This document shows positions 5,873-18,924 of a stretch of DNA of 33,916 nt, in pieces. Made by a program: the position numbers and the translations under genes. Below the pieces are notes generated by a model. That model searched no databases. It had not been told where the DNA came from and was given only the letters and a program-made list of their open reading frames with translations. The stretch's first letter is position 1; the number at the start of each line of letters is the position of its first letter. This stretch comes from Emticicia agri (GTDB taxonomy: Bacteria > Bacteroidota > Bacteroidia > Cytophagales > Spirosomataceae). Where the stretch lies: positions 1 through 33,916 of the forward strand of contig CAMAQF010000044.1 of the NCBI GenBank assembly GCA_945860265.1, given 5' to 3'.

Positions 5873-6262
5873 ATGAAGCAAACATTAAAAAAGGACGAGC
5901 GTCTTTGTAGTGTGAAGGTTATAGAAGGCCTTTTTGACAGAAAAAATTCTGCCAATGAAGGAGTATTTTCATACCCGATGCGTGTGGTTTTTCAGCCTCA
6001 AATTTATTCAGAAACTAATTCAGCCATTGCTAATCTAAAGGTTACCCAAGTTTTATTTTCAGTGCCGAAGCGTCAGTTTAAGCACGCCGTTGACCGCAAT
6101 CTTATTCGCCGCCGTATGAAAGAAGCCTATCGTCTGCATAAACAGCTGCTCATAGGAAATTATAGCATCGCTTTTATTTATATAGGAAAAGGTATCGAAG
6201 ATTATAAAGTTATCGAAAAAGGCATGAAAAGTGCTTTGAAGAAGGTGTTTAGTACAAAATGA
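5873..6262 (+). CDS. rnpA: Ribonuclease P protein component
   Basis: A 129-aa basic protein that assists the catalytic RNA of RNase P in 5' maturation of pre-tRNA. The RNR signature is intact at residues 71-84: 'HAVDRNLIRRRMKEA'. It is preceded by the 'FSVPKRQFKHAV' strand. The position just after rpmH is conserved in bacteria. A degenerate copy of its 3' end lies at 9597-9747, beyond the first BNR gene, so this locus was a rearrangement target. Reading frame and length are normal and this copy looks functional. Confidence 0.93.
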   Translation: MKQTLKKDERLCSVKVIEGLFDRKNSANEGVFSYPMRVVFQPQIYSETNSAIANLKVTQVLFSVPKRQFKHAVDRNLIRRRMKEAYRLHKQLLIGNYSIAFIYIGKGIEDYKVIEKGMKSALKKVFSTK

Positions 6263-6420
6263 TTAAAAACTCTCTCACATTTTTATTTCTTCCCAACCTT
6301 TATTATAAAAATAGGATCATTTAATAAAGTTTTAAAATTAATAGCTAATTATTCAAAATTAAACAATATTGATATTTGTTTTAAACAGCAGCTATACCGT
6401 TTATATAATTGCCAATTATT

Positions 6421-6434
6421 TACCTAAATAGGTA
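6421..6434. promoter_or_regulatory. Palindrome before the first cassette lipoprotein
   Basis: TACCTAAATAGGTA is a perfect inverted repeat (TACCTA-AA-TAGGTA) that ends 6 nt before the ATG. It could be an operator or a small hairpin overlapping the ribosome binding site. Only one copy was noticed, so its role is unproven. Confidence 0.25.
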
Positions 6435-6440
6435 GAGTTT

Positions 6441-6857
6441 ATGAAATTGATATATTTGTATTTCATTCTTACTTTAATAGGATGTACTGCCGAAGGTGTA
6501 AGACCTTTGGGGATTGTGGAAGGTAAAGTAAATATTGACCCCCTTTGTGGATATACTATAGACCCTAATAGCGATAATCCATGCAGATTAACCAATGAAG
6601 AATTGGATAGGATTTATGGTGATTATACTGTTTTAATAAGTAGTGAAAAAAGTCATATTACCCCCTTAAGAAAAAAACTGGACCGGACTGGAGTTTTTTT
6701 ATTTGAGGTAGAAGAGGGTCCTTATAAAGTATATTTAGAGTCTGCCATAAAAAATGCACTGGCTTTAAGTGTAAAAACAAATATTGAGAAAAACGTGAAG
6801 GTTTCAAATCAACAACGAGTATTTGTCGAATTAAATGTCAATGCTGGACGACCTTAG
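6441..6857 (+). CDS. Small lipoprotein of the cassette, paralog 1
   Basis: A 138-aa protein with a type II signal peptide: hydrophobic start and lipobox L-I-G-C with the modified Cys at residue 15. After it comes the core 'GIVEGKVNIDPLCG', a second conserved Cys in 'DNPC', a central 'DRTGVFLFEV' strand and an ending 'ELNVNAGRP'. The same pattern recurs in the genes at 12342 and 12775, so these are paralogs. The shape suggests a single beta-sandwich (transthyretin or prealbumin-like) domain held on a lipid anchor, probably with a disulfide between the two core cysteines. I do not recognise a named family with certainty. It lies between rnpA and the first BNR gene. No function is assigned. Confidence 0.78.
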   Translation: MKLIYLYFILTLIGCTAEGVRPLGIVEGKVNIDPLCGYTIDPNSDNPCRLTNEELDRIYGDYTVLISSEKSHITPLRKKLDRTGVFLFEVEEGPYKVYLESAIKNALALSVKTNIEKNVKVSNQQRVFVELNVNAGRP

Positions 6858-7079
6858 AAATACAAGAACGAATATTAATTATAGGGCTGTTGATTTTGGA
6901 GTAACAGACTTTTTTTGTTCCATTTTATGTATAAAATATTTTTTAATGATTGTTTGATAAGAATATTGTTTAAAATTTAGGATTATTGGTAATTTTATAA
7001 TCTAAAACTAAATAAACTCGTTAAAGTAAATAAACGGATTTTAATTAAACCATTATCTTTTATTCAATACTATTGAACT

Positions 7080-9485
7080 ATGTTAATAATTGTACATGGA
7101 CGGCAATATTGGCTATTTCTTTTACTGTTTACTTTTAATAATGTTTTTGCTCAGAAGACAATTTATGAAATCATTAATCGAAATGATTTAAGTTTTACAG
7201 AGATCCAAAATTTGGCCGATTTGTTTATCGCCAACGAGACCGATACCACTCAGCAAAAGAAAGACCAAAAGCATTATGAAAGATGGAAATTTGAGCAAAA
7301 ATTCCATTTAGATGAAAAAGGCTACCGAATATCGGCTCTGGTTGAGCAAGAAGCTTTCAAGAAAGCCGCTCATATTTCTCCGCTTTCATCATCGGCTGCA
7401 TGGGTAGAACTCGGCCCTAAAAGTTTTACTTATACTTCGGGCTGGAATCCGGGTATAGGACGAGTTACGAGTGTGGCTGTAAATCCGAGTGATACAAATA
7501 TTATTTATATTTCTTCGCCAGGTGGTGGTATTTGGAAGACTACGAATGGAGGTACATCATGGACTCCGCTCGTCGACAATAACAGTACTTACATGAATGT
7601 TTTTAATCTTGCTATTGCTCCTTCTAATACAAATACAATCTATGCAGCAGCTACTGGTTTAGGAGTTATTAAATCTACAGATGCGGGTATTACTTGGACA
7701 ACAATGGCTGCTAGTAATATTTCAACTAGAAAAATAATGGTTCATCCAACCAATAGCAATAAAATATATGCAACTTCCAGTTTAGGAATTCATGAATCTT
7801 CAAATGGTGGCACAAGTTGGACTCTAAGACTGTCTGGGGTTTCAGTCGAAGATATTGAATTTAAACCAAACGACCCAAACATAATGTATTCCTCAGGAAA
7901 TTCGGCTTCGGCTACAACAATTCATCGCTCAACTGATGGCGGTACAACTTGGAACGCTATTACTTCAGGCATTACCGATTTAGGACGTACGCTATTAGGC
8001 GTAAGCCCAAATAATGCCAATGTAGTTTATGCCGTACAAGCCAGTGGAAGTCAGTTTGGGCGATTGTATAAAAGTACAGATGCGGGACTAACCTTTACTA
8101 CTACTGTCATCGGAAATGTGGCGGCAAGGACTAATTATTTTGGATATACAAGCACAACGGCTGGCGGACAAGCTACTTATGATATGGCAATTGCGGTAAA
8201 TCCATCAAATGTAAATGATTTGTCTATCGCAGGAATTATTGTTTGGCGAAGCACCAACGGCGGAATTTCCTTTATTCAACAAACTGTTTGGTCTTACCCA
8301 AATACAGTAGGTTATAATCACGCTGATGTTCATGCCTTAGAATATGTGGGTACTACGCTTTATTCGGGAAGTGATGGAGGAATTTATAAAACATCTTATA
8401 CTGCCCAAAACACTTGGACAGACATATCTACGGGTCTTGGAATCAGACAATTGTATCGGATTGCTTCGAGTATTACCAATGCCAATGTAATGGCAGGCGG
8501 AGCTCAGGATAACGGAACTGTGGCACGACAATCAGGAGGGAATTTTGTAGATTGGCTCGGTGCCGATGGAATGGATGTTATCATTGACCCCACTAATCAT
8601 CTACGAATGATAGGCACTTCGCAAAATGGGAATATTTACAGAACCACTAATGGAGGTAGTTCATATACTGGTTTATCAAGGCCAACTGCAGGCAACTGGA
8701 TTACCCCTTTGGCATGGCATCCAACGAGTTCAACGACCGCCTATGGTGGCTGGAATGCTGTTTACAAAACAATTAATTCAGGTACAAATTGGACGGCGAT
8801 TTCACCCGTAACGGGGAATTTAAATGAATTAGCTGTTGCCCCATCAAATGACCAATATATTTATGCCTCTCTCGGAACAACCTTGCACCGAACTGCAAAT
8901 GGTGGTACAACTTGGTCAACTTATACTGCACCAGCCACTATTACTGATATTGCTGTAAAGTACAATGACCCTACCCGAGTCTGGATAACCACAACATCGA
9001 GTTCTCAACCTGTCTTGCTTTCGACGAATGCAGGAGCTACTTTTACTACTATTTCGGCTGGCTTACCTTCTATTTCGGGGAGAAGTATTGTTGTAGATGA
9101 TTTCACAACTGAAGGTATCTATGTTGGTATGAATATTGGCGTTTATTACAGAAATTTAGCAAATCCTACATGGACTTTGTTCGGAACGGGTTTGCCTCAA
9201 GTGGCAGTTAATGAAGTAGAACTTTCAAAAATTGGTGGAAAACTAAGAGTTGGTACTTATGGAAGAGGTTTTTGGGAAATCGAGACTCCAAGTTGTAGCC
9301 TGACTTTAGTTTACGGAAATATTTCGCAAGCTGCAGGAACTTATTCAGCCAGTGAAACCATAACGAGTCAGGCAAATATTACTACTCCCACCAATTATTA
9401 TGCAGGAAAAAGCATTTCGCTTAATCCGCCATTTAGTGCAGGGCCAAGCGAAGTTTTTTTAGCAAAAATACAGGGTTGTAATTAA
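7080..9485 (+). CDS. Secreted BNR/sortilin-like repeat protein with C-terminal Gly-Cys-Asn domain (copy 1)
   Basis: An 801-aa extracellular protein. Residues 1-24 form a signal peptide (cleavage after ...NVFA). A helical, charged linker (about 26-95) is followed by about ten BNR-type motifs, such as TTNGGTSW, STDAGITW, STDGGTTW and TANGGTTW, the mark of a multi-blade beta-propeller of the sortilin/exo-sialidase/photosystem-assembly type. The last ~65 residues form a separate beta-rich domain ending in GCN, the same ending as in the gene at 9825; it resembles the so-called 3-coathanger stack C-terminal domain of Bacteroidota secreted proteins (recalled, not searched). No clear glycosidase catalytic residues were identified, so a binding or adhesive role is as likely as an enzymatic one. 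Confidence 0.85.
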   Translation: MLIIVHGRQYWLFLLLFTFNNVFAQKTIYEIINRNDLSFTEIQNLADLFIANETDTTQQKKDQKHYERWKFEQKFHLDEKGYRISALVEQEAFKKAAHISPLSSSAAWVELGPKSFTYTSGWNPGIGRVTSVAVNPSDTNIIYISSPGGGIWKTTNGGTSWTPLVDNNSTYMNVFNLAIAPSNTNTIYAAATGLGVIKSTDAGITWTTMAASNISTRKIMVHPTNSNKIYATSSLGIHESSNGGTSWTLRLSGVSVEDIEFKPNDPNIMYSSGNSASATTIHRSTDGGTTWNAITSGITDLGRTLLGVSPNNANVVYAVQASGSQFGRLYKSTDAGLTFTTTVIGNVAARTNYFGYTSTTAGGQATYDMAIAVNPSNVNDLSIAGIIVWRSTNGGISFIQQTVWSYPNTVGYNHADVHALEYVGTTLYSGSDGGIYKTSYTAQNTWTDISTGLGIRQLYRIASSITNANVMAGGAQDNGTVARQSGGNFVDWLGADGMDVIIDPTNHLRMIGTSQNGNIYRTTNGGSSYTGLSRPTAGNWITPLAWHPTSSTTAYGGWNAVYKTINSGTNWTAISPVTGNLNELAVAPSNDQYIYASLGTTLHRTANGGTTWSTYTAPATITDIAVKYNDPTRVWITTTSSSQPVLLSTNAGATFTTISAGLPSISGRSIVVDDFTTEGIYVGMNIGVYYRNLANPTWTLFGTGLPQVAVNEVELSKIGGKLRVGTYGRGFWEIETPSCSLTLVYGNISQAAGTYSASETITSQANITTPTNYYAGKSISLNPPFSAGPSEVFLAKIQGCN

Positions 9486-9565
9486 GTTTGAAGCCTTAAT
9501 TTTACTCTAATCTCACCAAGTTTTTCACCGTAAGAAGTAAACCATTCAATATTGCATCACCCTTC
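9482..9565 (-). pseudogene. Remnant of a LytTR response regulator C-terminus
   Basis: Read on the minus strand this gives EG-stop-CNIEWFTSYGEKLGEIRVKLRLQT-stop. It aligns with the last residues of the intact LytTR regulator at 18232 ('EISVGASYEDKLSEIRERLRL'), sharing the S-Y-x-x-K-L-x-E-I-R-x-x-L-R-L pattern. Everything N-terminal is missing, and an in-frame stop lies inside. Its own stop codon overlaps the stop codon of the BNR gene on the other strand. It is a decayed fragment, not a gene. Confidence 0.6.
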
Positions 9566-9596
9566 AATTAAGCTGATAGGTGGGAAGTTTTTTATA

Positions 9597-9747
9597 AGTC
9601 GTATGAAAGAAGCTTATCGCCAACATAAATAACTAATTATAGGAAACTTCAATATTGCATTTGTATTCTGGTAAAGAAATCGAAGATTATAAAGCTATTG
9701 AGAAAGGTTTGAAAGGTGCTATCAAGAAAGTACTAACCGCAAATTAA
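9597..9747 (+). pseudogene. Degenerate copy of the 3' end of rnpA
   Basis: The frame reads SRMKEAYRQHK-stop-LIIGNFNIAFVF, then after a 2-nt deletion EIEDYKAIEKGLKGAIKKVLTAN-stop. This matches the intact rnpA C-terminus (RRMKEAYRLHKQLLIGNYSIAFIY...IEDYKVIEKGMKSALKKV) along its whole length. It has no N-terminal half, one nonsense codon and one frameshift. Most differences are scattered and many are at third positions, so this is an old duplicate or a copy from a related strain, not a recent tandem copy. Confidence 0.8.
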
Positions 9748-9785
9748 AATTGATTTACTACTACTTAGAAAGCCAATAGAGTTCT

Positions 9786-9793
9786 TATCTTTG
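9786..9793 (+). promoter_or_regulatory. Candidate -7 box for the second BNR gene
   Basis: TATCTTTG matches TAnnTTTG and lies 31 nt before the ATG at 9825, just downstream of the rnpA remnant. The -33 element is weak (TTA at 9765-9767). It suggests that the second BNR gene has its own promoter. Confidence 0.4.
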
Positions 9794-9824
9794 GTAGAAA
9801 TAAACCCCAAAAACACATATATTT

Positions 9825-12251
9825 ATGAAAACACTTCTCTTTATGGGTATTTGTCTGGCTATCCCTCAGATTTTATTTGCTCAAGTTGAGAATGAAGATT
9901 TTCCTGAAGAGCGAATGAGGCATGAAACAAATATTACAATCGATCCCGCCTTAGGTCGTGTTCCGTTTGAAAGACTTGTTCAAGAACGTGAAAAATTACA
10001 TAAGGGACTGCAAGATAAAACTATAAAAACTGCTATTGTAGGTTTAAATTGGTACGAACGTGGGCCAAATAATATTGGTGGTCGAACGAGAGCATTGATG
10101 TTTGATCCCAATGATGCTACTAAAAAAAGAGTTTTTGCGGGGGGGGTTGGTGGAGGATTATGGTACAACAATGATATTACTTCGTCAATCAGTTCATGGA
10201 CAAAAATTGATGATTTTTGGGCAAATATTGCGGTAAGTAGTATTGCTTATGACCCCTCGAATACGCAAATTATTTATGTGGGTACTGGCGAAGGATGGTC
10301 GAGTTCTGATGCACTTCAAGGTGCGGGTATTTATAAAACATCTAATGGTGGTACTACTTGGAATTTAATATCTTCCACAACAGGCATTGCAACTTATGCC
10401 AATAACTTTAAATATACCCAAAAAATTGTTGTAAATAGCCTCGGAGAAGTCTTTGCAGGAACTCAAACGGGTGTTTTAAAATCAACTGATGGTGGGGCAA
10501 ATTGGAGTGTGTCGCAGGCTGGCACTAATTTCGTATCTGATTTAGAAATTGGGACTGATGGAGTTATTTATGCAGCCTTTGGAAGAGGATCTGCTTCTGG
10601 TAGAATCTATAAGTCAACAGATAGAGGGGTAAGCTGGACTGATATAAGTCCCGATAATTTACAGCAGAGAATAGAGATTGCCTTAGCTCCTTCAACGAGT
10701 GGTATATCTCAAGTGGTTTATGCGATGGCAGATGCAAACCCAAGTGCTGATTCGCCCGCATGGATAAAGAAATCAACGGATGCAGGCATAAATTGGGCAA
10801 ATGTAACTAATACATCAATTTTGGGTTCGCAGGGGTGGTATGACATGATTTTGGCGGTACATCCTACAAACCCTAATTTGGTTATTGCGGGCGGTAACGT
10901 AATAGGAAGAACAATAGATGGTGGTGTAACATGGACGCTACAAAGCTATTGGACTCCACATCCTGACCAACACGCTATTGTGTTTAGGCAAAATGGGGAT
11001 ACTTATAACGAAGTGATTATTGGTAATGATGGTGGAGTTGTATATTCAGCCGATTATGGTAATGCTATAGATGCTTCTCCTTCGTTTTCTGAACGTAATA
11101 CTGGTTATAATGTTACACAGTTTTACGGAATTTCGATGAAGAACATATCTGGTGATGGATATATTGTAGGGGGAACGCAAGATAATAATACGCTGAGAAT
11201 AACTTCTGCCGAAAATGTAATAGGTGATGGCACTAATGTAAATGGAGGTGATGGAATCGCTTCTTTTGTTGACCAAGATGACCCCACAATTGCACTTGTT
11301 TCGGCTCAATATGGCAATTATAGAAAGATGAATACTACAACAAGTGCCTTGACGAGTTTAGGTATAACCAGTAGTCAATTTATTACAACTGCTGATTATG
11401 ATAGTCAGAATAATATATTTTATTCAGACAATACGAATGGGACATCTATCTGGAAAGTTAGAAGTATTAACGGAACACCCGTTGCTACCTTTTATTCTAC
11501 TGGTGTTCCTGCTGGAACATCGTTTATTCGTGTGGGGCTTACTGCTCATACTATTTTTGTTGGAACAGGAAGGGCCGTTTCACGGTTTAGCAGTGGTGGT
11601 AATATTTATAAAATTACTAATTTCGGTGAAGCAGGGCAAACGACAACTCTTATAGGAACATTTAATATTGGTTCTATTTCTTCTATTTCGGTTGGTGCTA
11701 CCGAAAATGAGTTATTAGTGACACAATCAAATTATGGTATAAAATCAGTTTATTATACTAATGATGGAGGTGCAACTTGGGTAAGTAAAGATGAGTCAGC
11801 TTATGGTTTGCCCGATGTGCCTATTCGATACGGGATTTTCAACCCACAAGATAGAAAACAAGTGCTTTTAGCAACAGAATTGGGAGTTTGGTCATCGACT
11901 GATATAACAGCAGCAAATCCAGGTTGGGGTGTAACTAATACTGGCTTAGCCAATGTGAGTTGTCATCAATTATATTACCGCTCTGCCGATAACACAGTGG
12001 CAGTTGCTACACACGGTCGAGGAATTTTTACTACTAAATTGACATCATGCCCAACAAATGTAGTTAAAACAGGTAATATGTCGGGAACTGAGACCGTTTT
12101 GTCAGGTACCTATATTAATGGTAAGACGACAAATGTTATTCAGGCCGGAGCGAATACAACCTATAGTGCAAAAAATTATGTACTGCTCGAACCTAAGTTT
12201 GAAACTCAGAGTGGAGCTATTTTTAAAGCTTTGATCGGCGGATGTAATTAG
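9825..12251 (+). CDS. Secreted BNR/sortilin-like repeat protein with C-terminal Gly-Cys-Asn domain (copy 2)
   Basis: An 808-aa secreted protein starting with a clear signal peptide (MKTLLF..., cleavage near FAQ). It has an early segment 'WYERGPNNIGGRTRAL', common at the start of such propellers, then BNR-type motifs TSNGGTTW, STDGGANW, STDRGVSW, STDAGINW, TIDGGVTW and TNDGGATW. The final ~65 residues begin with a Cys-Pro segment and end 'FKALIGGCN', matching the end of the protein at 7080 (...KIQGCN). The bodies of the two proteins have diverged strongly, so this is an old duplication or independent recruitment of the same architecture. It is followed by a hairpin and then two lipoprotein genes. 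Substrate and catalytic activity are unknown. Confidence 0.85.
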   Translation: MKTLLFMGICLAIPQILFAQVENEDFPEERMRHETNITIDPALGRVPFERLVQEREKLHKGLQDKTIKTAIVGLNWYERGPNNIGGRTRALMFDPNDATKKRVFAGGVGGGLWYNNDITSSISSWTKIDDFWANIAVSSIAYDPSNTQIIYVGTGEGWSSSDALQGAGIYKTSNGGTTWNLISSTTGIATYANNFKYTQKIVVNSLGEVFAGTQTGVLKSTDGGANWSVSQAGTNFVSDLEIGTDGVIYAAFGRGSASGRIYKSTDRGVSWTDISPDNLQQRIEIALAPSTSGISQVVYAMADANPSADSPAWIKKSTDAGINWANVTNTSILGSQGWYDMILAVHPTNPNLVIAGGNVIGRTIDGGVTWTLQSYWTPHPDQHAIVFRQNGDTYNEVIIGNDGGVVYSADYGNAIDASPSFSERNTGYNVTQFYGISMKNISGDGYIVGGTQDNNTLRITSAENVIGDGTNVNGGDGIASFVDQDDPTIALVSAQYGNYRKMNTTTSALTSLGITSSQFITTADYDSQNNIFYSDNTNGTSIWKVRSINGTPVATFYSTGVPAGTSFIRVGLTAHTIFVGTGRAVSRFSSGGNIYKITNFGEAGQTTTLIGTFNIGSISSISVGATENELLVTQSNYGIKSVYYTNDGGATWVSKDESAYGLPDVPIRYGIFNPQDRKQVLLATELGVWSSTDITAANPGWGVTNTGLANVSCHQLYYRSADNTVAVATHGRGIFTTKLTSCPTNVVKTGNMSGTETVLSGTYINGKTTNVIQAGANTTYSAKNYVLLEPKFETQSGAIFKALIGGCN

Positions 12252-12266
12252 AGTCTTTCTAAATAT

Positions 12267-12308
12267 AATAATGATTCCAACCTATTTATAGTTATTGGAA
12301 TCATTATT
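12267..12308 (+). terminator. Hairpin after the second BNR gene
   Basis: A perfect 14-bp inverted repeat, AATAATGATTCCAA (12267-12280) and TTGGAATCATTATT (12295-12308), with a 14-nt loop. It lies 15 nt past the stop codon and is followed by a T-rich stretch. It probably ends or stabilises the BNR transcript and lets the lipoprotein pair be expressed separately. Confidence 0.6.
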
Positions 12309-12341
12309 GTTTATAATAAAATTTTTAAAATAATTACTAAA

Positions 12342-12767
12342 ATGAAAAATATTATGACATTTTTAGTTGCATTTTTGTTTTTATTTGGTTGCGAAAACGT
12401 TCCCATCGATGCAGGGATAGTGGAAGGCAAAGTGACGATTGGGCCACTTTGTGGAAATATTCCAGCAATGACGTCTGGTACAAATCCATGTGGATTTACT
12501 GATGAGCAAATGAATCAAGTTTATTCAAAATATAAGGTTGCAATTTATAGCGTAAACAGCCCAAAGGTTGTATTAAAAGAGGTGGTTTTGAATAGAACAG
12601 GTACTTTTTCTTTTGAAGTCCCAACAGGGGGGTATTCGGTTGAAGTCTTGATACCCCAAGGAAGTGCCGCAACTACACAATTAGGTAGCGAATTGAAAAA
12701 AATGGTTAGTATTTCCAAGAGTAAGGTTACAACTATTAGTCTGAATGTAAATACTGGAATTCAATAG
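12342..12767 (+). CDS. Small lipoprotein of the cassette, paralog 2
   Basis: A 141-aa protein with a type II signal peptide; the lipobox is L-F-G-C with Cys17. The core is closely similar to paralog 1 at 6441: 'GIVEGKVTIGPLCG', second Cys in 'TNPCGFTDEQ', then 'NRTGTFSFEVPTGGYSVEV', ending 'SLNVNTGIQ'. The alternating polar and hydrophobic strands suggest a beta-sandwich. The gene lies 90 bp after the second BNR gene and 7 bp before the next lipoprotein gene, with which it should form one transcript ending at 13194-13224. Likely outer membrane or periplasmic; function unknown. Confidence 0.78.
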   Translation: MKNIMTFLVAFLFLFGCENVPIDAGIVEGKVTIGPLCGNIPAMTSGTNPCGFTDEQMNQVYSKYKVAIYSVNSPKVVLKEVVLNRTGTFSFEVPTGGYSVEVLIPQGSAATTQLGSELKKMVSISKSKVTTISLNVNTGIQ

Positions 12768-12774
12768 CAAAAAC

Positions 12775-13176
12775 ATGAAAAGCTACATAATATTATCGAC
12801 AATATTCTTAACATTGATTGCCTGCTCATCGCAAACAATCACGCCCGATATTGGTTCGCTTGATTTGAAAGTGACTGTAGGGCCACTTTGCCCCGTTGAA
12901 CCTTGTAATAAAAATACCGATGATATTAGAAAAGTATATGAAGCATACACTTTTACTGTGAAAGAAGCAAAAACTGGAAAAGTAGTTTTGGCAAAAACAT
13001 TGACTTATAATGGCACAAATGGTTTATTAAAAAGTACTGATATATCGATAGGTGAATTTGAACTTGATTTTAGTCCAAAAAGCTTTTTCAATAAGCAAGG
13101 GTTTCCGAGACCATTCATAATCGAAAAAAGTAAAATGACCCAACTCAATATTTCGATTGATACGGGTATTCGATGA
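12775..13176 (+). CDS. Small lipoprotein of the cassette, paralog 3
   Basis: A 133-aa protein with lipobox L-I-A-C (Cys17) after a short hydrophobic signal. The core 'LKVTVGPLCPVEPC' keeps the P-L-C segment and places the second Cys only five residues later, closer than in paralogs 1 and 2. The end 'NISIDTGIR' matches their 'N-V-N-T/A-G' ending. It is the most divergent of the three. It starts 7 bp after the stop of paralog 2, so translation is likely coupled, and an excellent terminator follows. Function unknown. Confidence 0.75.
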   Translation: MKSYIILSTIFLTLIACSSQTITPDIGSLDLKVTVGPLCPVEPCNKNTDDIRKVYEAYTFTVKEAKTGKVVLAKTLTYNGTNGLLKSTDISIGEFELDFSPKSFFNKQGFPRPFIIEKSKMTQLNISIDTGIR

Positions 13177-13193
13177 GATATTTTTTGATTTTT

Positions 13194-13224
13194 AAAACGC
13201 CAATCAAAACGATTGGCGTTTTTT
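13194..13224 (+). terminator. Strong intrinsic terminator after the lipoprotein pair
   Basis: AAAACGCCAATC, loop AAAAC, GATTGGCGTTTT with further T: a perfect 12-bp stem with a U-tract, 18 nt past the stop codon at 13176. It marks the right edge of the BNR/lipoprotein cassette. Confidence 0.88.
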
Positions 13225-13326
13225 GTTCCCTTTTTCAATCAAGTACCGCTGCAACATTTAGCTTCAATGCTGGGAATTACACCCGAAACTTTTAGTGGTG
13301 GGAATTCTTATCTCACTTTTCAATAA
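13225..13326 (+). pseudogene. Remnant of a Crp/Fnr-type regulator HTH end
   Basis: The frame reads VPFFNQVPLQHLASMLGITPETFS, then an unrelated short tail and a stop. 'PLQHLASMLGITPETFS' is the typical DNA-recognition helix-turn-helix of Crp/Fnr-family regulators, which normally continues with an R-x-R-K segment. There is no start codon or cyclic-nucleotide-binding domain upstream, because the preceding bases are the terminator. It is a decayed gene end. Confidence 0.6.
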
Positions 13327-13499
13327 AATGATAAATTCAACTACATAAGAAGGCTTTAAGTCTATGAAAAAAGCATTAAAAGATAAAACTGAAAGTTTGT
13401 GGCATTATTTTATTATCAAAAAAAACTGATAGTAAGCTATTTAGCAAATTTTTTCATTTATTTTAGTGGTATAATTCAACCTCATTCCTCTAAAATCAA

Positions 13500-14132
13500 A
13501 TGAAAATATTTTCTTATACTTTCGTATTACTTGCTTGCGTGCTTTCAGCATTCAATTTTACCCAAAAAAGTGTTCGACTTTTTGATGGAAAGACCTTTGA
13601 AGGCTGGGAAGGTGACACTCTAAATACCTGGCATATCGATAATGGTGCTTTGGTCGGTGGCTTTTTAGATAAAGATGTGCCACACAACGATTTTATATGT
13701 ACTACTCGAAACTACGTTAATTTTATACTAAAACTTAAAATAAAACTTGTAGGAAATAAAGGCTTTATCAATTCTGGCGTTCAATTTCGTAGCCAACGCT
13801 TGAAAAATCCCGCTCACGAAATGACCGGCTATCAAGCAGATTATGGAGAAAATTATTGGGGAACACTCTACGATGAATCTCGAAGAAACAAAACGATTGC
13901 TGGACAAGATGCAAAAATTACGCAGAAATATATAAAACTAAACGATTGGAACGACTATGAACTTCGAGTCGAAAATCGCCGAATTCGCATCTACATTAAC
14001 GGAAAACAAACAACCGATTATACCGAACTCGACCTAAAAATTCCCCAATCTGGGCTTATCGGCCTACAAATCCATGGAGGAGGAGCTGCTCTAGTTGCCT
14101 TCAAAGATATTTATATTCAAGAATTACCTTAA
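13500..14132 (+). CDS. DUF1080 / 3-keto-glycoside hydrolase-like secreted protein
   Basis: A 210-aa protein with an N-terminal hydrophobic export signal (a Cys at residue 13 in LLAC might be lipidated, but the lipobox is imperfect). The domain starts 'VRLFDGKTFEGWEGD' and contains 'GFINSGVQFRSQR', 'GYQADYGENYWGTLYDESRR', 'WNDYELRVENRRIRIYING' and 'GLIGLQIHGGG', the full set of DUF1080 (PF06439) landmarks of a concanavalin-like beta-sandwich. Known: members of this family act on 3-keto-disaccharides and 3-keto-glycosides. It heads a probable operon with the dehydrogenase-like gene 90 bp downstream, which fits oxidation followed by cleavage of a sugar outside the cytoplasm. Confidence 0.88.
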   Translation: MKIFSYTFVLLACVLSAFNFTQKSVRLFDGKTFEGWEGDTLNTWHIDNGALVGGFLDKDVPHNDFICTTRNYVNFILKLKIKLVGNKGFINSGVQFRSQRLKNPAHEMTGYQADYGENYWGTLYDESRRNKTIAGQDAKITQKYIKLNDWNDYELRVENRRIRIYINGKQTTDYTELDLKIPQSGLIGLQIHGGGAALVAFKDIYIQELP

Positions 14133-14140
14133 TTATAGTT

Positions 14141-14177
14141 ACCTGAACGATTTCGTTGCCTTCGACTTCGCTCAGGT
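14141..14177. repeat. Inverted repeat of the CTTCGACTTCGCTCAGG type
   Basis: The arms ACCTGAACGATTTCG and CGACTTCGCTCAGGT match at 12 of 15 positions as an inverted repeat. The right arm contains TTCGACTTCGCTCAGGT, a short sequence I recall as a frequent dispersed element in many bacterial genomes. It lies between two genes of a probable operon and could form an RNA hairpin there. Confidence 0.5.
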
Positions 14178-14222
14178 ATCGAAAAAATTACGACAAAACT
14201 ATTCAACCTTAAAATCAAGACT

Positions 14223-16985
14223 ATGTACAAATCACGTTTACTCTTACTCCTGCTTTTGGGGCAAATTATTCTTCCTTCCGTCTATGCCCAAGATACAACA
14301 AAAATTGATAAAGAATTTACGCTCGAGGCCACTATGTTGGGCTATTTCTTTAAGAATGGCACAAGAAATCCTACTTTAAAAGTAAAGAAAGGAAGTAGAA
14401 TAAAAATCAATATTGTCAACGGAGAGGTAATGACCCACAATATTGCTTTAGAGAAATTGGACATTAAAAGCGGAACAATTTCTGAAAAAGGTTCAAAGTC
14501 GAGTATCACTTTTGTGGCTAATAAAAGCGATACATACTATTGTACTGTTCCTGGTCATCGAGCTGCAGGTATGGTTGGGAAATTGGAAGTAGTAGAAGGA
14601 GAAATAATTGAAAAAATTGTAGTGGGTAAATTGCCTACGAAAAACGGCAAACCCCTCAATCTTAACTTTGAATCGGGAGATTTGCGTGATTGGATTGCTA
14701 CTGGCGATGCTTTTACAAGTCCATTGATTAGTGCGGACCCATCGCCCATTCATGATAAAGATATGATGATTGGCTTTGAAGGCAAAAACTTCCTTAGTTC
14801 TGGTGGAACTTTTAATTATAAACTAACAGGAACACTGACGTCTGTGCCATTCGTCGTAACTCAACCTTATGCCTCGTTTATGGTATCAGGTGGGGCACTG
14901 CAAGATACTCGTATAGAAATCGTTTTGGCTGATACCAAAAAGATTATTTTTCAGTCATCTGGGCAGGGGAGAGCCAATCTTCAGCCAGTAATTATTGATT
15001 TAAGAAAATATCTCAATAAAAATATCTTTATCAGAATAATAGATAAAGAAACTGGTATTTCGCAGATACCGTACATTCCGAACGATAAAATGGCTCATAT
15101 CAATTTCGATAATTTCTTATTTTACCCTTCGAGACCAGATTTTCAAAACGAATTATTTCAAAAAGATATTATTGTTTTACCACCAATCGACCCCGTTATC
15201 AACGCAGGGCTTTCGGGAATTGAGGCCGCAAAAGCCATGACACCACCCAAAGGTTTCAAGATCACACTGGCAGCCGCAGAACCAGATATTATACGCCCGA
15301 TTGCTTTTACTATTGATTGGCGAGGAAGACTTTGGGTAGTTGAGGGACATACTTATCCAGTACCTGCTCCCGAAGGACAAGGACGTGATAGAATCTTGAT
15401 TTTTGAGGACACAAACGGCGATGGAACACTCGATAGTCGCAAAGTTTTTACTGAAGGACTAAACCTCGTTAGTGGCATAGAAGTCGGCATGGGTGGCGTT
15501 TGGGTTGGTGCTGCCCCCTATTTATTGTATATTCCAACCGATTTCGATACTGATAAGCCAACTGGTGAGCCACAAAAACTATTAGATGGTTGGGGAACAC
15601 AAGATACCCACGAAACTCTAAATAGCCTACGATGGGGTCCAGATGGGTGGCTTTATGGAACGCATGGGGTATTTACACATTCAAAAGTTGGTAAACCTGG
15701 AACACCCGACGACCAACGCACTAAACTCAATGCGGGTATTTGGCGATATCACCCAACAAAGCACATTTTCGAGTTATTTGCCGAAGGAACAAGTAATCCG
15801 TGGGGCTTGGATTTTAATGATTATGGCCACGCTTTTATTACGGCCTGTGTGATTCCGCATTTATACAACATGATTCAAGGTGGTCGTTATGTACGTCAGG
15901 GTGGCAAGCATTTTAATCCATATATTTATGATGATATTAAAACCATTGCCGACCATGCCCATTTTTTGGGAAACCGTGGACCACATGCGGGAAATTTTCG
16001 TTCCGCAGCGGCAGGTGGAGGACACGCCCACGCAGGAGCAATGATTTATTTGGGCGGAAAAAATTGGCCGAAAGAATACCATAATAATATTTTTATGAAT
16101 AATATTAATGGTGCGAGATTGAACGTTGATGAACTGACCCGCGAAGGCTCAGGCTATGTGGCTAAGCACAAAAAAGATTTTATGCCCATGAATGATAGCT
16201 GGTCGCAATGGCTCAATTTCAAATACGACCCAAGCGGGTCAGTTTTTGCGATTGACTGGTATGATAAAAACCAATGTCATAGTTCAAATCCCGATGTGCA
16301 TGACAAAACAATGGGACGAATTTTTAAGATTAGTTACGAAACCGATAAATGGGTACAAGTCGATTTACGTAAATCAACTAACTTAGAATTGGTTAATTAT
16401 CAGTTAAATTCAAATGAATGGTATGTTCGTCAAGCAAGAACAATTTTGCAAGAAAGAGGTGAAAATAAGCAAGTACATGATGCCCTAAAAGTCATGCTGA
16501 ATACCAATCCAGATTTTAGTCGTAAGTTGAGGGCTTTGTGGACACTTTATGTTACCAACGGTTTTTCGGAGAAAGAATTAATTGATTTGCTTTCACACCA
16601 AAGTGAGTACATCAGAAGCTGGGCGATTCAGTTTTTGGCCGAAAACAATACCGTTTCTTCTTATGCTTTACAACAGTTTGGGGTAATGGCTAAAACCGAT
16701 AAATCGGCTTTAGTAAGGCTTTATTTGGCGTCGGCTATGCAAAGAATCGAACCTAATAAACGATGGGAGGTAGTTGAAGCTCTCGCTCAAAAAACAGAAG
16801 ATATTTCCGACCATAATTTACCCTTGATGATTTGGTATGCTGCCGAGCCTTTGGCTGATGTCGATGCGAAAAGAGCAATTATAATGGCAGAAAAAAGTTC
16901 GATTCCTAAGTTTTTAGAATATATGAAAAAAAGAACTGAAAATAATTCAACTACCGATAGCGGAAGTCCTAACCATAAACATTAA
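14223..16985 (+). CDS. Cupredoxin - PVC-type membrane-bound dehydrogenase-like fusion
   Basis: A 920-aa secreted protein. Residues 1-22 are a signal peptide. Residues about 30-127 form a plastocyanin/azurin-like domain with type 1 copper ligands H72, C107, H112 and M117 ('THN', 'CTVPGH', 'GM'). Residues about 140-310 look like a carbohydrate-binding-like beta domain. From about 325 comes the PVC-type dehydrogenase propeller ('PPKGFKITLAAAEPDIIRPI', 'DTNGDGTLD', 'SNPWGLDF'), then HEAT-like helices to the end. Many relatives carry a C-terminal cytochrome c domain; no CxxCH motif is present, so the copper centre may take the electron. Likely a periplasmic sugar or alcohol oxidation enzyme; the substrate is inferred from the DUF1080 neighbour. 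Confidence 0.82.
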   Translation: MYKSRLLLLLLLGQIILPSVYAQDTTKIDKEFTLEATMLGYFFKNGTRNPTLKVKKGSRIKINIVNGEVMTHNIALEKLDIKSGTISEKGSKSSITFVANKSDTYYCTVPGHRAAGMVGKLEVVEGEIIEKIVVGKLPTKNGKPLNLNFESGDLRDWIATGDAFTSPLISADPSPIHDKDMMIGFEGKNFLSSGGTFNYKLTGTLTSVPFVVTQPYASFMVSGGALQDTRIEIVLADTKKIIFQSSGQGRANLQPVIIDLRKYLNKNIFIRIIDKETGISQIPYIPNDKMAHINFDNFLFYPSRPDFQNELFQKDIIVLPPIDPVINAGLSGIEAAKAMTPPKGFKITLAAAEPDIIRPIAFTIDWRGRLWVVEGHTYPVPAPEGQGRDRILIFEDTNGDGTLDSRKVFTEGLNLVSGIEVGMGGVWVGAAPYLLYIPTDFDTDKPTGEPQKLLDGWGTQDTHETLNSLRWGPDGWLYGTHGVFTHSKVGKPGTPDDQRTKLNAGIWRYHPTKHIFELFAEGTSNPWGLDFNDYGHAFITACVIPHLYNMIQGGRYVRQGGKHFNPYIYDDIKTIADHAHFLGNRGPHAGNFRSAAAGGGHAHAGAMIYLGGKNWPKEYHNNIFMNNINGARLNVDELTREGSGYVAKHKKDFMPMNDSWSQWLNFKYDPSGSVFAIDWYDKNQCHSSNPDVHDKTMGRIFKISYETDKWVQVDLRKSTNLELVNYQLNSNEWYVRQARTILQERGENKQVHDALKVMLNTNPDFSRKLRALWTLYVTNGFSEKELIDLLSHQSEYIRSWAIQFLAENNTVSSYALQQFGVMAKTDKSALVRLYLASAMQRIEPNKRWEVVEALAQKTEDISDHNLPLMIWYAAEPLADVDAKRAIIMAEKSSIPKFLEYMKKRTENNSTTDSGSPNHKH

Positions 16986-17010
16986 TTCAAATTTTAGATT
17001 GATAAATAAT

Positions 17011-18186
17011 ATGAAAAAATATTTCAAAATATTCCTACAATATAGTCTTTGCTGCAGCCTAATAGGTGTAGTATCACTTTCTACGTTTGCTCAAGACTTC
17101 AAAAAAACAATACTTTCAAGAGATTTTCTATCAGAGGGCGGAGCAGTGGCTGATTTGAACAAAGATGGTAAACTTGATATTGTGGCCGGTTATTATTGGT
17201 TTGAAGCCCCAAACTGGACTCGTCACGAAATGGCTCCTTCAAGAGTGTTTAAGCCTCGTGAAGAATACAGTAATTCATTCCTTAACTTTGGAATGGATGT
17301 AAATCTTGATGGCTGGGACGACGTAGTGATTATTGATTACCCAGGAAAACCGGCTTTTTGGTTTGAAAATCCCCAAAAACACCAAGTTGGCGAATGGAAA
17401 AAGCACATCATCGCCGACTCGGTGGGTATAGCCAACGAATCACCCAATTTTGTTGATATTGATGGCGATGGAAGGTTGGATATTTTGTGTGGAGATAAGG
17501 CTAAAAAACAAATTGTATGGCTAAAATCGCCGAGTAAAAAAGGAGAAACTACTTGGAAAAGATTTAATTTAACAAACGAAAAAGTAGCAGGAACAGAAAT
17601 GTTTTCGCATGGAATTGGCTATGGCGATATTAATCACGATGGAATAAAAGATGTGGTCATTCGTGAAGGCTGGTATCAAGGAACAAAAGACCTCAACGGT
17701 GGAAATTGGGAGTTTCACCCAGCAAATTTGGGCGAACCATGCTCTCACATGCAAGTTTTTGACGTAAACGGCGATGGTAAAAATGATGTAGTGGCGGCAT
17801 CAGCACACGCTTTGGGAGTTTGGTATTATGAGCAAATCAACGAAAATAGAAAAATAGATTTCAAAACTCACACAATAAGCACAACCACCTCCCAAACGCA
17901 CGCATCAATAATGGCTGATTTGAATGGTGACGGGAAAAAAGAATACATAACTGGCAAACGTTATTTGGCTCATAATGGTCGAGATAATGGCGATGCCGAT
18001 GCTCCAATTTTGATGTATTTTGAGTTTGATTCTAAAAAGCAGCCTTATTGGACTGAACATATCATTGATAGCGATTCAGGTTCGGGGCTGAACTTAACTG
18101 TTGCTGATATGAACAAAGATGGCAAGCTTGACATCGTTATTGTCAGTAAAAATGGCGTGTTTTTGTTAGAGAATCATTTGAAGTAA
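17011..18186 (+). CDS. Secreted FG-GAP/VCBS repeat protein
   Basis: A 391-aa exported protein. The ATG at 17011 is chosen over a TTG 12 nt upstream. The signal peptide runs to about residue 27 (...STFAQ). Six calcium-binding-type repeats are seen: ADLNKDGKLD, VDIDGDGRLD, GDINHDGIKD, FDVNGDGKND, ADLNGDGKKE and ADMNKDGKLD, the pattern of an integrin-like beta-propeller. Such proteins often bind glycans or partner proteins. It lies 25 bp after the dehydrogenase-like gene, so the three genes from 13500 probably form one operon. No catalytic residues are recognisable; a binding or scaffold role is more likely. Confidence 0.85.
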   Translation: MKKYFKIFLQYSLCCSLIGVVSLSTFAQDFKKTILSRDFLSEGGAVADLNKDGKLDIVAGYYWFEAPNWTRHEMAPSRVFKPREEYSNSFLNFGMDVNLDGWDDVVIIDYPGKPAFWFENPQKHQVGEWKKHIIADSVGIANESPNFVDIDGDGRLDILCGDKAKKQIVWLKSPSKKGETTWKRFNLTNEKVAGTEMFSHGIGYGDINHDGIKDVVIREGWYQGTKDLNGGNWEFHPANLGEPCSHMQVFDVNGDGKNDVVAASAHALGVWYYEQINENRKIDFKTHTISTTTSQTHASIMADLNGDGKKEYITGKRYLAHNGRDNGDADAPILMYFEFDSKKQPYWTEHIIDSDSGSGLNLTVADMNKDGKLDIVIVSKNGVFLLENHLK

Positions 18187-18231
18187 AAAGAGAAATAAAT
18201 CAACTATTCTTCGATTATTGAATGTTAAGAT

Positions 18232-18924
18232 TTAAAGCCTCAATCGTTCTCGAATCTCACTGAGTTTATCTTCATAAGAAGCTCCTACCGATATTTCATT
18301 ACCCGCCACCCAAACCGACTGGCGGGTAATTTTTTGTATTTTATTTACAGCCACTATATACGAGCGATGGATTCTAATAAATTGATTGGCTGGAAGTTGA
18401 GTCATACATTCTCCAATATTTTGTCGGCATAATATTTTTTTATTGGATAAAACATACGCCATATAATTCCCTTCGGCTTCAACGTAAAGAAGATCATCGA
18501 GTAATACTTTTTCTTCTTCGTATCCAGTTTTTAGAAACAGAAAATTAGAAGCAGTATCGTTTCGAGAAAGTTTTATTTCGAAAACTTTATTGCACGCCTT
18601 CGTAAATCTTGCTAATGAAAATGGCTTTAAAAGGTAGTCAATTGCATCGAGTTCAAATCCTTTTACTGCATATTCAGAATAGGCCGTAGTAAAGATAATC
18701 ATAGGTGTTTTTTGTAGTATTTGCACAAACTCAATACCCGAAATATCAGGCATTTTTATATCGAGAAAAATTAAATCAACTTTGTTTTGCTGCAAAAATG
18801 GAATCGCCTCGAAAGCATCAGTAAAGGTTGCTTTTAGTTCAAGAAATGGTACTTTTTGAGCGTGTATTTCAATCACTTCTAAGGCTCTTGGTTCATCGTC
18901 GATGGCAATGGCGTTTATTGTCAT
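18232..18924 (-). CDS. LytTR-family response regulator
   Basis: A 230-aa two-component regulator. The receiver domain (1-120) has acidic residues D9-D10, phosphoacceptor D55 in 'FLDIKMPD', and K104 in 'LLKPF'. The LytTR DNA-binding domain (about 130-230) has 'LYVEAEGNYMAYVL' and 'FIRIHRSYIVAVNKI'. It follows its kinase gene with a 52-bp gap and is transcribed towards the FG-GAP gene. Target genes are unknown. Known LytTR systems control cell-surface and polysaccharide functions, so the convergent sugar operon is a possible but unproven target. A decayed tail of a related regulator lies at 9482-9565. Confidence 0.93.
   Translation of the reverse strand: MTINAIAIDDEPRALEVIEIHAQKVPFLELKATFTDAFEAIPFLQQNKVDLIFLDIKMPDISGIEFVQILQKTPMIIFTTAYSEYAVKGFELDAIDYLLKPFSLARFTKACNKVFEIKLSRNDTASNFLFLKTGYEEEKVLLDDLLYVEAEGNYMAYVLSNKKILCRQNIGECMTQLPANQFIRIHRSYIVAVNKIQKITRQSVWVAGNEISVGASYEDKLSEIRERLRL

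Follow-up and report, generated by a model that had tools for sequence, protein, structure and literature searches.

The window analysed here, 33,916 nucleotides of the Emticicia agri contig CAMAQF010000044.1 (source genome of 4.43 Mb in 174 contigs), encodes two large β-propeller proteins, propellers 1 and 2, next to three small lipoproteins, lipoproteins 1 to 3, and both propellers end in the NCBIfam domain GCX_COOH (NF045639, 3-coathanger stack domain). Every gene of this lipoprotein family that we found in a sample of 200 Spirosomataceae genomes lies in a run with a gene for a GCX_COOH-tailed protein, and the head of propeller 2 has been exchanged between relatives at a fixed locus. Our tentative reading, possible but short of probable, is a two-part surface module in which a tailed propeller with an exchangeable head would be docked by a CnaB/transthyretin-like outer-membrane lipoprotein. 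A sequence-only reading of the window had reported the order rnpA, lipoprotein 1, propeller 1, debris, propeller 2, lipoproteins 2 and 3 and a terminator; this order is confirmed, and the five open reading frames (ORFs) match in their coordinates, all on the plus strand.

Pairing of the lipoprotein with GCX_COOH-tailed proteins

To follow the lipoprotein, a profile built from 16 sequences was run on the 200 genomes (designated G, with G000 the window's own; L designates loci). We scored 20 candidates per genome in this search, 10 in a phylum sample and five in the searches with propeller 1, propeller 2 and the class II protein described below, and therefore divergent relatives may be missed. 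Fourteen genomes matched, and G218 (E 9e-4) was dropped as a short partial match with no PLC motif in its neighbourhood. The remaining 13 genomes contain 20 lipoprotein genes, and we read the neighbours of all 20, judging synteny by eye. Using a hidden Markov model (HMM) made from only 12 lipoprotein-free GCX_COOH tails of the window's genome, we found the ORF directly 5' of the first lipoprotein to be GCX_COOH-tailed in 13/13 genomes, the two being separated by 52-90 bases. Of the 20 lipoprotein genes, five stand behind another lipoprotein gene, as lipoprotein 3 does, and two, of the lipoprotein 1 type, precede a tailed gene instead. A fourteenth case of a tailed gene before a lipoprotein is found on contig L054 (Emticicia sp. 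EMPMRC01). GCX_COOH genes make up about 0.6% of the genes in the 13 genomes, assuming about 0.9 genes per kb. Judged by their neighbours, the pairs represent about six loci: the rnpA locus of the window, G006, G035, G032 with G112, G120 with G091, and G089.

Two kinds of protein body stand upstream of the lipoprotein: a BNR propeller in nine genomes and a class II protein of 702-764 amino acids in four (G032, G112, G035, G089). The latter had no Pfam match in the two proteins tested and no likeness to either propeller in G032 and G035. Because 4/13 genomes have a tailed body of another kind, the feature shared by the partners looks to be the GCX_COOH tail rather than the BNR propeller. The pairing of two protein families proposed from the sequence thus stands from the lipoprotein side, where they are neighbours far beyond chance, but its propeller half seems better replaced by the tail.

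From the side of propeller 2, relatives give 58 matches in 38/200 genomes, nine of them adjoining a lipoprotein. All nine belong to the 19 matches that reach the tail, as compared to 0/39 for those that stop short of it (Fisher p 9e-6, with matches that are not independent of each other); for one of the 39, G009:C42, the tail is encoded by an ORF of its own. The proposal that the lipoprotein is tied to BNR propellers as such was rejected in view of the class II bodies and of the absence of pairs among the 39 matches that stop short of the tail, a minority of which had their neighbourhoods read. The class II search gave eight matches. Four are full-length and have the lipoprotein; G035:C512 has the tail, but only 79 bases of its contig follow. 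In G120:C173 a weak tail is present and the lipoprotein is absent, and neither of them is seen in G059 and G035:C441. The idea that propeller and lipoprotein families keep together, and are not found apart in most genomes, consequently fails for the propeller (9/58) and holds for the lipoprotein.

Exchange of the propeller head

For the head of propeller 2 we found two allele classes, A (G000, G004, G005, G007) and B (G009, G010), with an identity of 48-54% between and 73-87% within classes. The last 62 residues, in contrast, are 90-98% identical among G000, G009, G004, G005 and G010 and 81-85% identical to G007. In the lipoprotein 2 tree, G000 and G009 are sisters, which is contradicted by the head tree, and over 15 pairs the lipoprotein 2 distance correlates with that of the tail (r 0.94) and not with that of the head (r -0.20). 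At fourfold sites, G000 and G009 agree at 30-56% of the positions in the head; the value is 47% for residues 720-746, 69% for the tail and 80-93% for the flanks. The conflicting head tree, together with a fourfold agreement of the head far below that of the flanks, shows that the heads were exchanged. The tail is maintained partly through linkage and partly through selection on the protein. Such an exchange of heads at one locus would offer a natural case of a surface protein that retains its attachment and alters its working end.

Propellers and the GCX_COOH tail

Propellers 1 and 2 align over their full length (25% identity, E 3e-40). The C-terminal domain that the sequence-only reading saw in both is GCX_COOH: the two scores (Table 1) lie above the cut-off of 26 bits, and the matches run to the extreme C-terminus (residue 801/801 in propeller 1, 808/808 in propeller 2). 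The NF045639 model names no partner. For the sorting domain of type A cargo of the type IX secretion system (T9SS; TIGR04183) there is no match at E up to 1 in either propeller; elsewhere in the window's genome this tail occurs in 33 places. GCX_COOH itself occurs there in 20 places, 19 of them above the cut-off, on many different bodies of up to more than 1000 amino acids, and none of the loci examined (L033-L049, including L035 and L037) has a GPLC lipoprotein, as we name the family after its motif. L039 and L082 contain a GCX_COOH paralog of propeller 2 that has no lipoprotein partner and is flanked by two look-alike small genes (ORFs of about 200 amino acids); the propeller gene is split in G009. 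GCX_COOH tails are common in the Spirosomataceae; we found no paper that explains how they work, and the terms '3-coathanger stack', 'GCX_COOH' and 'NF045639' had no mention in the literature searched. Within the Spirosomataceae, such tails are the only setting in which the lipoprotein was seen, and it thus offers a concrete two-gene pair for asking if something binds the tail, and what.

For the head of propeller 2, the fold is predicted to be a tandem propeller of the GH74 type, as the 15 best Foldseek matches of the model (pLDDT 63.5) are all GH74/xyloglucanase entries with TM 0.37-0.53 of the query. GH74 chains are also its best sequence matches, although at an identity of only about 17%. 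Propeller 1 passes the cut-off of 33 bits for the sortilin (Vps10) tandem propellers (Sortilin-Vps10, PF15902; Table 1), whereas propeller 2 is unmatched at E up to 1. Neither reaches the cut-off of 175 for the F510_1955 glycosylhydrolase (NF045728; 123.4 and 72.4 bits). The alignments to GH74 are partial and assign no residues to the positions of the two catalytic aspartates. Relatives of propeller 1 above 50% identity occur only in G009 and G089 among the 200 genomes.

The GPLC lipoprotein family

The three lipoproteins, which had been described as sharing one core, have 20 invariant columns in common. They are stand-alone proteins of 133-141 amino acids with an invariant PLC...PC cysteine pair, and the lipobox cysteine is invariant in 16/16 aligned sequences; by eye and without a prediction program, we read the lipoboxes of lipoproteins 1-3 as LIGC, LFGC and LIAC. 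Likewise read by eye, without a signal-peptide program, all five products of the locus have the signal-peptide-like start expected from the earlier claim of export. The window's genome has three copies, all at this locus, and a fourth weak match (E 0.04). Modelled without its signal peptide, lipoprotein 2 is predicted to form a β-sandwich, as had been guessed from the sequence (pTM 0.70; pLDDT in Table 1). Its best fold matches are CnaB and SdrD-B-type domains (GBS52, UafA, SdrD, CnaB2; TM about 0.5), and carboxypeptidase-regulatory-like domains belong to the same circle. The lipoproteins differ from these domains in standing alone, in their PLC...PC cysteines and in scoring below the Pfam cut-offs: none reaches the threshold for CnaB, SdrD_B or CarboxypepD_reg, the best values being 15.5 vs 29.7 for lipoprotein 2 and 22.1 vs 32.3 for the G035 protein.

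Distant members with GPLCPVEPC...IDTGIR sequences occur in archaea, Bacteroidales and Chlorobiota, at 23-39% identity to lipoprotein 2. Archaeal carriers (L057, L058, L061-L064, L067-L070; Methanosarcina, Methanoregula, Micrarchaeota and others) have close lipoproteins of this form among varied neighbours.

A promoter-like element upstream of the lipoprotein

Upstream of the lipoprotein, 12/13 genomes (all but G089) have a conserved 27-base element, which in its strict form reads CAACC[AT]TTT-N13-[AG]TC[AT]T. A matrix built from nine sites gave leave-one-out scores of 16.5-28.5; on 1.35 million strand-bases it returned 14 sites scoring at least 20, namely these 12, the one before lipoprotein 1 and a single further site in G006 at 20.0; no other site exceeded 15.0. 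The lipoprotein 1 ortholog in G009 has a look-alike element that is one base longer. Six genomes together gave 28 matches to the strict pattern vs 10 to the reversed control, with little or no excess in G000 (6 vs 4) and G006 (3 vs 4) taken alone. Of the 28, 22 lie at most 173 bases 5' of a same-strand ORF (the control sites were not placed). Four ORFs behind the element resemble sigma factors of the extracytoplasmic function (ECF) type, two of them confirmed by TIGR02937; as judged by eye, many have lipoprotein-like starts. A T9SS type A tail is found on one of the ORFs, and a PorP/SprF gene adjoins one. At L088, L093, L097 and L106 (sites 1501-1527), the element precedes ECF sigma and lipoprotein-like genes, and it might be the mark of an ECF regulon rich in lipoproteins in the Spirosomataceae. 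Its spacing resembles that of the E. coli sigma E promoter, and ECF control of the lipoprotein through this element may be assumed. SigP was rejected as the sigma factor, since the motif reported for Porphyromonas differs in the available part of the source (PMC4800418), and the accessible portion of PMC8265659 contains no sigma motif that we could find.

Between propeller 2 and lipoprotein 2 (12262-12312 of the window), 4/6 Emticicia have the element within a strong hairpin (z -4.0 to -6.1), which is weak in G005 (z -1.5) and G007 (z 0.1). By eye, the hairpin shows one paired change from U-A to C-G between species.

Proposed docking and alternative explanations

According to our model, a large β-propeller protein with a GH74/sortilin-like head and a GCX_COOH tail would be secreted, and the small CnaB/transthyretin-like lipoprotein, encoded by the following gene, would be expressed from a separate promoter of the ECF type. 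Presumably placed in the outer membrane, the lipoprotein would receive the tail by direct contact, and the propeller would in this way reach the cell surface or be retained there. Recombination could then swap the head, with tail and lipoprotein staying. The nearest described arrangement is T9SS type B cargo with its PorP/SprF partner: for SprB-SprF and PG1035-PorP, the accessible text of two papers describes C-terminally tagged surface proteins of Bacteroidota with an outer-membrane partner, encoded adjacently, as shuttle or anchor (PMC9143113, PMC12618676). The likeness, as far as these portions go, lies in a tagged surface protein with a dedicated partner encoded next to it, a role which our lipoprotein may have. 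In contrast, the tag here is GCX_COOH and not the type B domain, the partner is a small CnaB-like lipoprotein and not a β-barrel, and binding is reported there, whereas here we have adjacency alone.

Several observations weigh against docking. The 13 lipoprotein-bearing genomes have 379 GCX_COOH matches, and 15 tailed genes, some of which may fall below the search threshold, adjoin a lipoprotein; ten of the 19 tail-reaching relatives of propeller 2 stand without one (all ten checked). The lipoprotein-free genomes G001, G002, G003 and G008 have 61, 73, 1 and 67 matches, and as G001, G002 and G008 are rich in tails, GCX_COOH does not need the lipoprotein in general. Paired tails form no single recognisable subtype, and for two class II tails the score does not reach the GCX_COOH cut-off (15.8 and 25.5 vs 26; E 8e-6 to 6e-8 with our own tail HMM). 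Residues 723-790 of propeller 2, in the region of the tail, are modelled with pLDDT below 50. An unrelated neighbour gene outside the module also tracks the tail and lipoprotein 2 (r 0.83 and 0.96), so that the two go with the species and plain vertical inheritance explains the correlation between them. Besides, lipoprotein 2 agrees at 93% of fourfold sites between G000 and G009 and the tail at 69%, which argues that the likeness of the tails is partly due to selection and not to linkage. Outside the family sample, a scan of named genomes gave 22 lipoprotein loci, seven of which were already among the paired ones; in the other 15 (11 archaeal, the rest Bacteroidales and Chlorobiota), GCX_COOH was found in 0/15, with 3.8 to 20 kb of DNA examined each. 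This difference from the paired loci, within one sequence family, suggests that the older role of the lipoprotein is something else. In the phylum sample, 2/394 other genomes match the lipoprotein, G500 and the weak G268, both with no GCX_COOH beside it in the stretch examined. With unpaired tails abundant and distant lipoproteins lacking GCX_COOH, the pairing is one-sided and specific to this bacterial family.

A general role as a GCX_COOH factor was rejected, as most tailed genes are without the lipoprotein, which for the same reason looks like an accessory of some cargos. As the best reading, we propose a dock or maturation factor for a GCX_COOH-tailed, GH74-like propeller. Much of the evidence behind docking would be explained as well by a shuttle or by a separate binder of the same target. 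The adjacency also fits a secretion or maturation factor at the periplasmic face, a chaperone or shuttle that does not stay bound to the tailed cargo. PorP/SprF-like shuttles are, in the accessible part of PMC12618676, often gene neighbours of T9SS type B cargo, and the presence of the element before a type A-tailed gene and beside a PorP/SprF gene also fits. We consider this alternative unlikely, however, since most GCX_COOH proteins do without the lipoprotein and its predicted fold is CnaB-like and not a β-barrel. The GH74-like fold and sequence matches of propeller 2, together with a 3-keto-disaccharide hydrolase domain protein in the same island, would be in line with functional neighbours that have no contact, the lipoprotein binding the same glycan or target as the propeller in the manner of surface glycan-binding proteins of polysaccharide utilisation loci. 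This is improbable to us, as two kinds of head go with one kind of lipoprotein, heads swap at the locus while lipoprotein 2 stays, and the lipoprotein is a small protein whose conservation extends to archaea. Chance is the least credible explanation: although the family is rare (13/200) and one orthologous locus accounts for 6/13 genomes, a lipoprotein that landed behind a GCX_COOH gene and was then inherited would very hardly give about six distinct loci with two kinds of body in several genera, always on the same side except for lipoprotein 1.

Going beyond docking, the GPLC lipoprotein might be a dedicated receptor of the GCX_COOH tail. This would amount to an undescribed way of holding proteins at the surface of Bacteroidota, in which a constant base of tail and lipoprotein would have an ECF-sigma switch of its own and carry exchangeable heads; we regard it as rather unlikely.

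The island between rnpA and a response-regulator-like gene

Table 1. Features of the propeller-lipoprotein locus (positions in the window)
Feature	Positions	Strand	Evidence
rnpA (ribonuclease P protein), intact, left island edge	5873..6262	+	PF00825 46.9 bits
Promoter-like element CAACC...ATCAT, 5' of lipoprotein 1	6294..6320	+	matrix score 20.6 (matrix built without this site)
Lipoprotein 1 (GPLC family, here DPLC), 5' of propeller 1	6441..6857	+	
Propeller 1 (BNR1), C-terminal GCX_COOH	7080..9485	+	PF15902 80.3 bits; NF045639 42.9 bits
Decayed remnant like rnpA 3' end; same remnant in G009	9560..9747	+	homology to rnpA
Propeller 2 (BNR2), GH74-like tandem propeller head (predicted), allele class A; C-terminal GCX_COOH	9825..12251	+	NF045639 52.2 bits
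GCX_COOH tail of propeller 2 (final 62 residues), conserved despite head differences between allele classes	12063..12251	+	
Promoter-like element 5' of lipoprotein 2	12278..12304	+	
Lipoprotein 2 (GPLC family), 90 bases past propeller 2 stop	12342..12767	+	model pLDDT 80.6
Lipoprotein 3 (GPLC family, shorter GPLCPVEPC form)	12775..13176	+	
Terminator-like hairpin	13194..13222	+	z -5.1

The hairpin 3' of lipoprotein 3 is followed by T-rich sequence, in agreement with the terminator read from the sequence; a simple terminator scan did not list it.

The five genes (Table 1) belong to a larger island that extends from rnpA to a response-regulator-like gene (label by eye) at 18232-18924. In the 5/5 other genomes of the genus examined (G001, G002, G003, G008, G006), rnpA stands beside that gene, directly in two and with one small gene between in three. 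The order in G007 is rnpA, propeller 2, a single lipoprotein and the response-regulator-like gene, and in G004, G005 and G010 it is rnpA, propeller 2, lipoproteins 2 and 3 and a 3-keto-disaccharide hydrolase gene. In the window and G009, rnpA and propeller 2 are additionally separated by lipoprotein 1 and propeller 1, behind which the decayed rnpA 3' end lies. This rise in gene content from empty sites via G007 to the window and G009 indicates a stepwise growth of the island. The region (6262-18232 of the window; L117-L121) is thus an expanding island in Emticicia, with no propeller or lipoprotein there in five genomes, two such genes in G007 and more elsewhere.

The gene debris noted after propeller 1 is real and homologous to the rnpA 3' end (72% identity over 145 compared columns). 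Such debris is what one cross-over within rnpA would be expected to produce, an origin that the site pattern weakly favours. An incoming cassette that replaced the rnpA 3' end was set aside as weakly supported, the remnants siding with other Emticicia vs the intact gene by 9:6 and 10:4 (15 sites). A recent tandem duplication of one propeller-lipoprotein unit was rejected in view of the low identity of the two propellers and the reversed gene order. Behind the 3-keto-disaccharide hydrolase domain protein and still within the island, the window encodes a protein that combines a PVC-type heme-binding CxxCH domain with an N-terminal part resembling cupredoxin (14223-16985).

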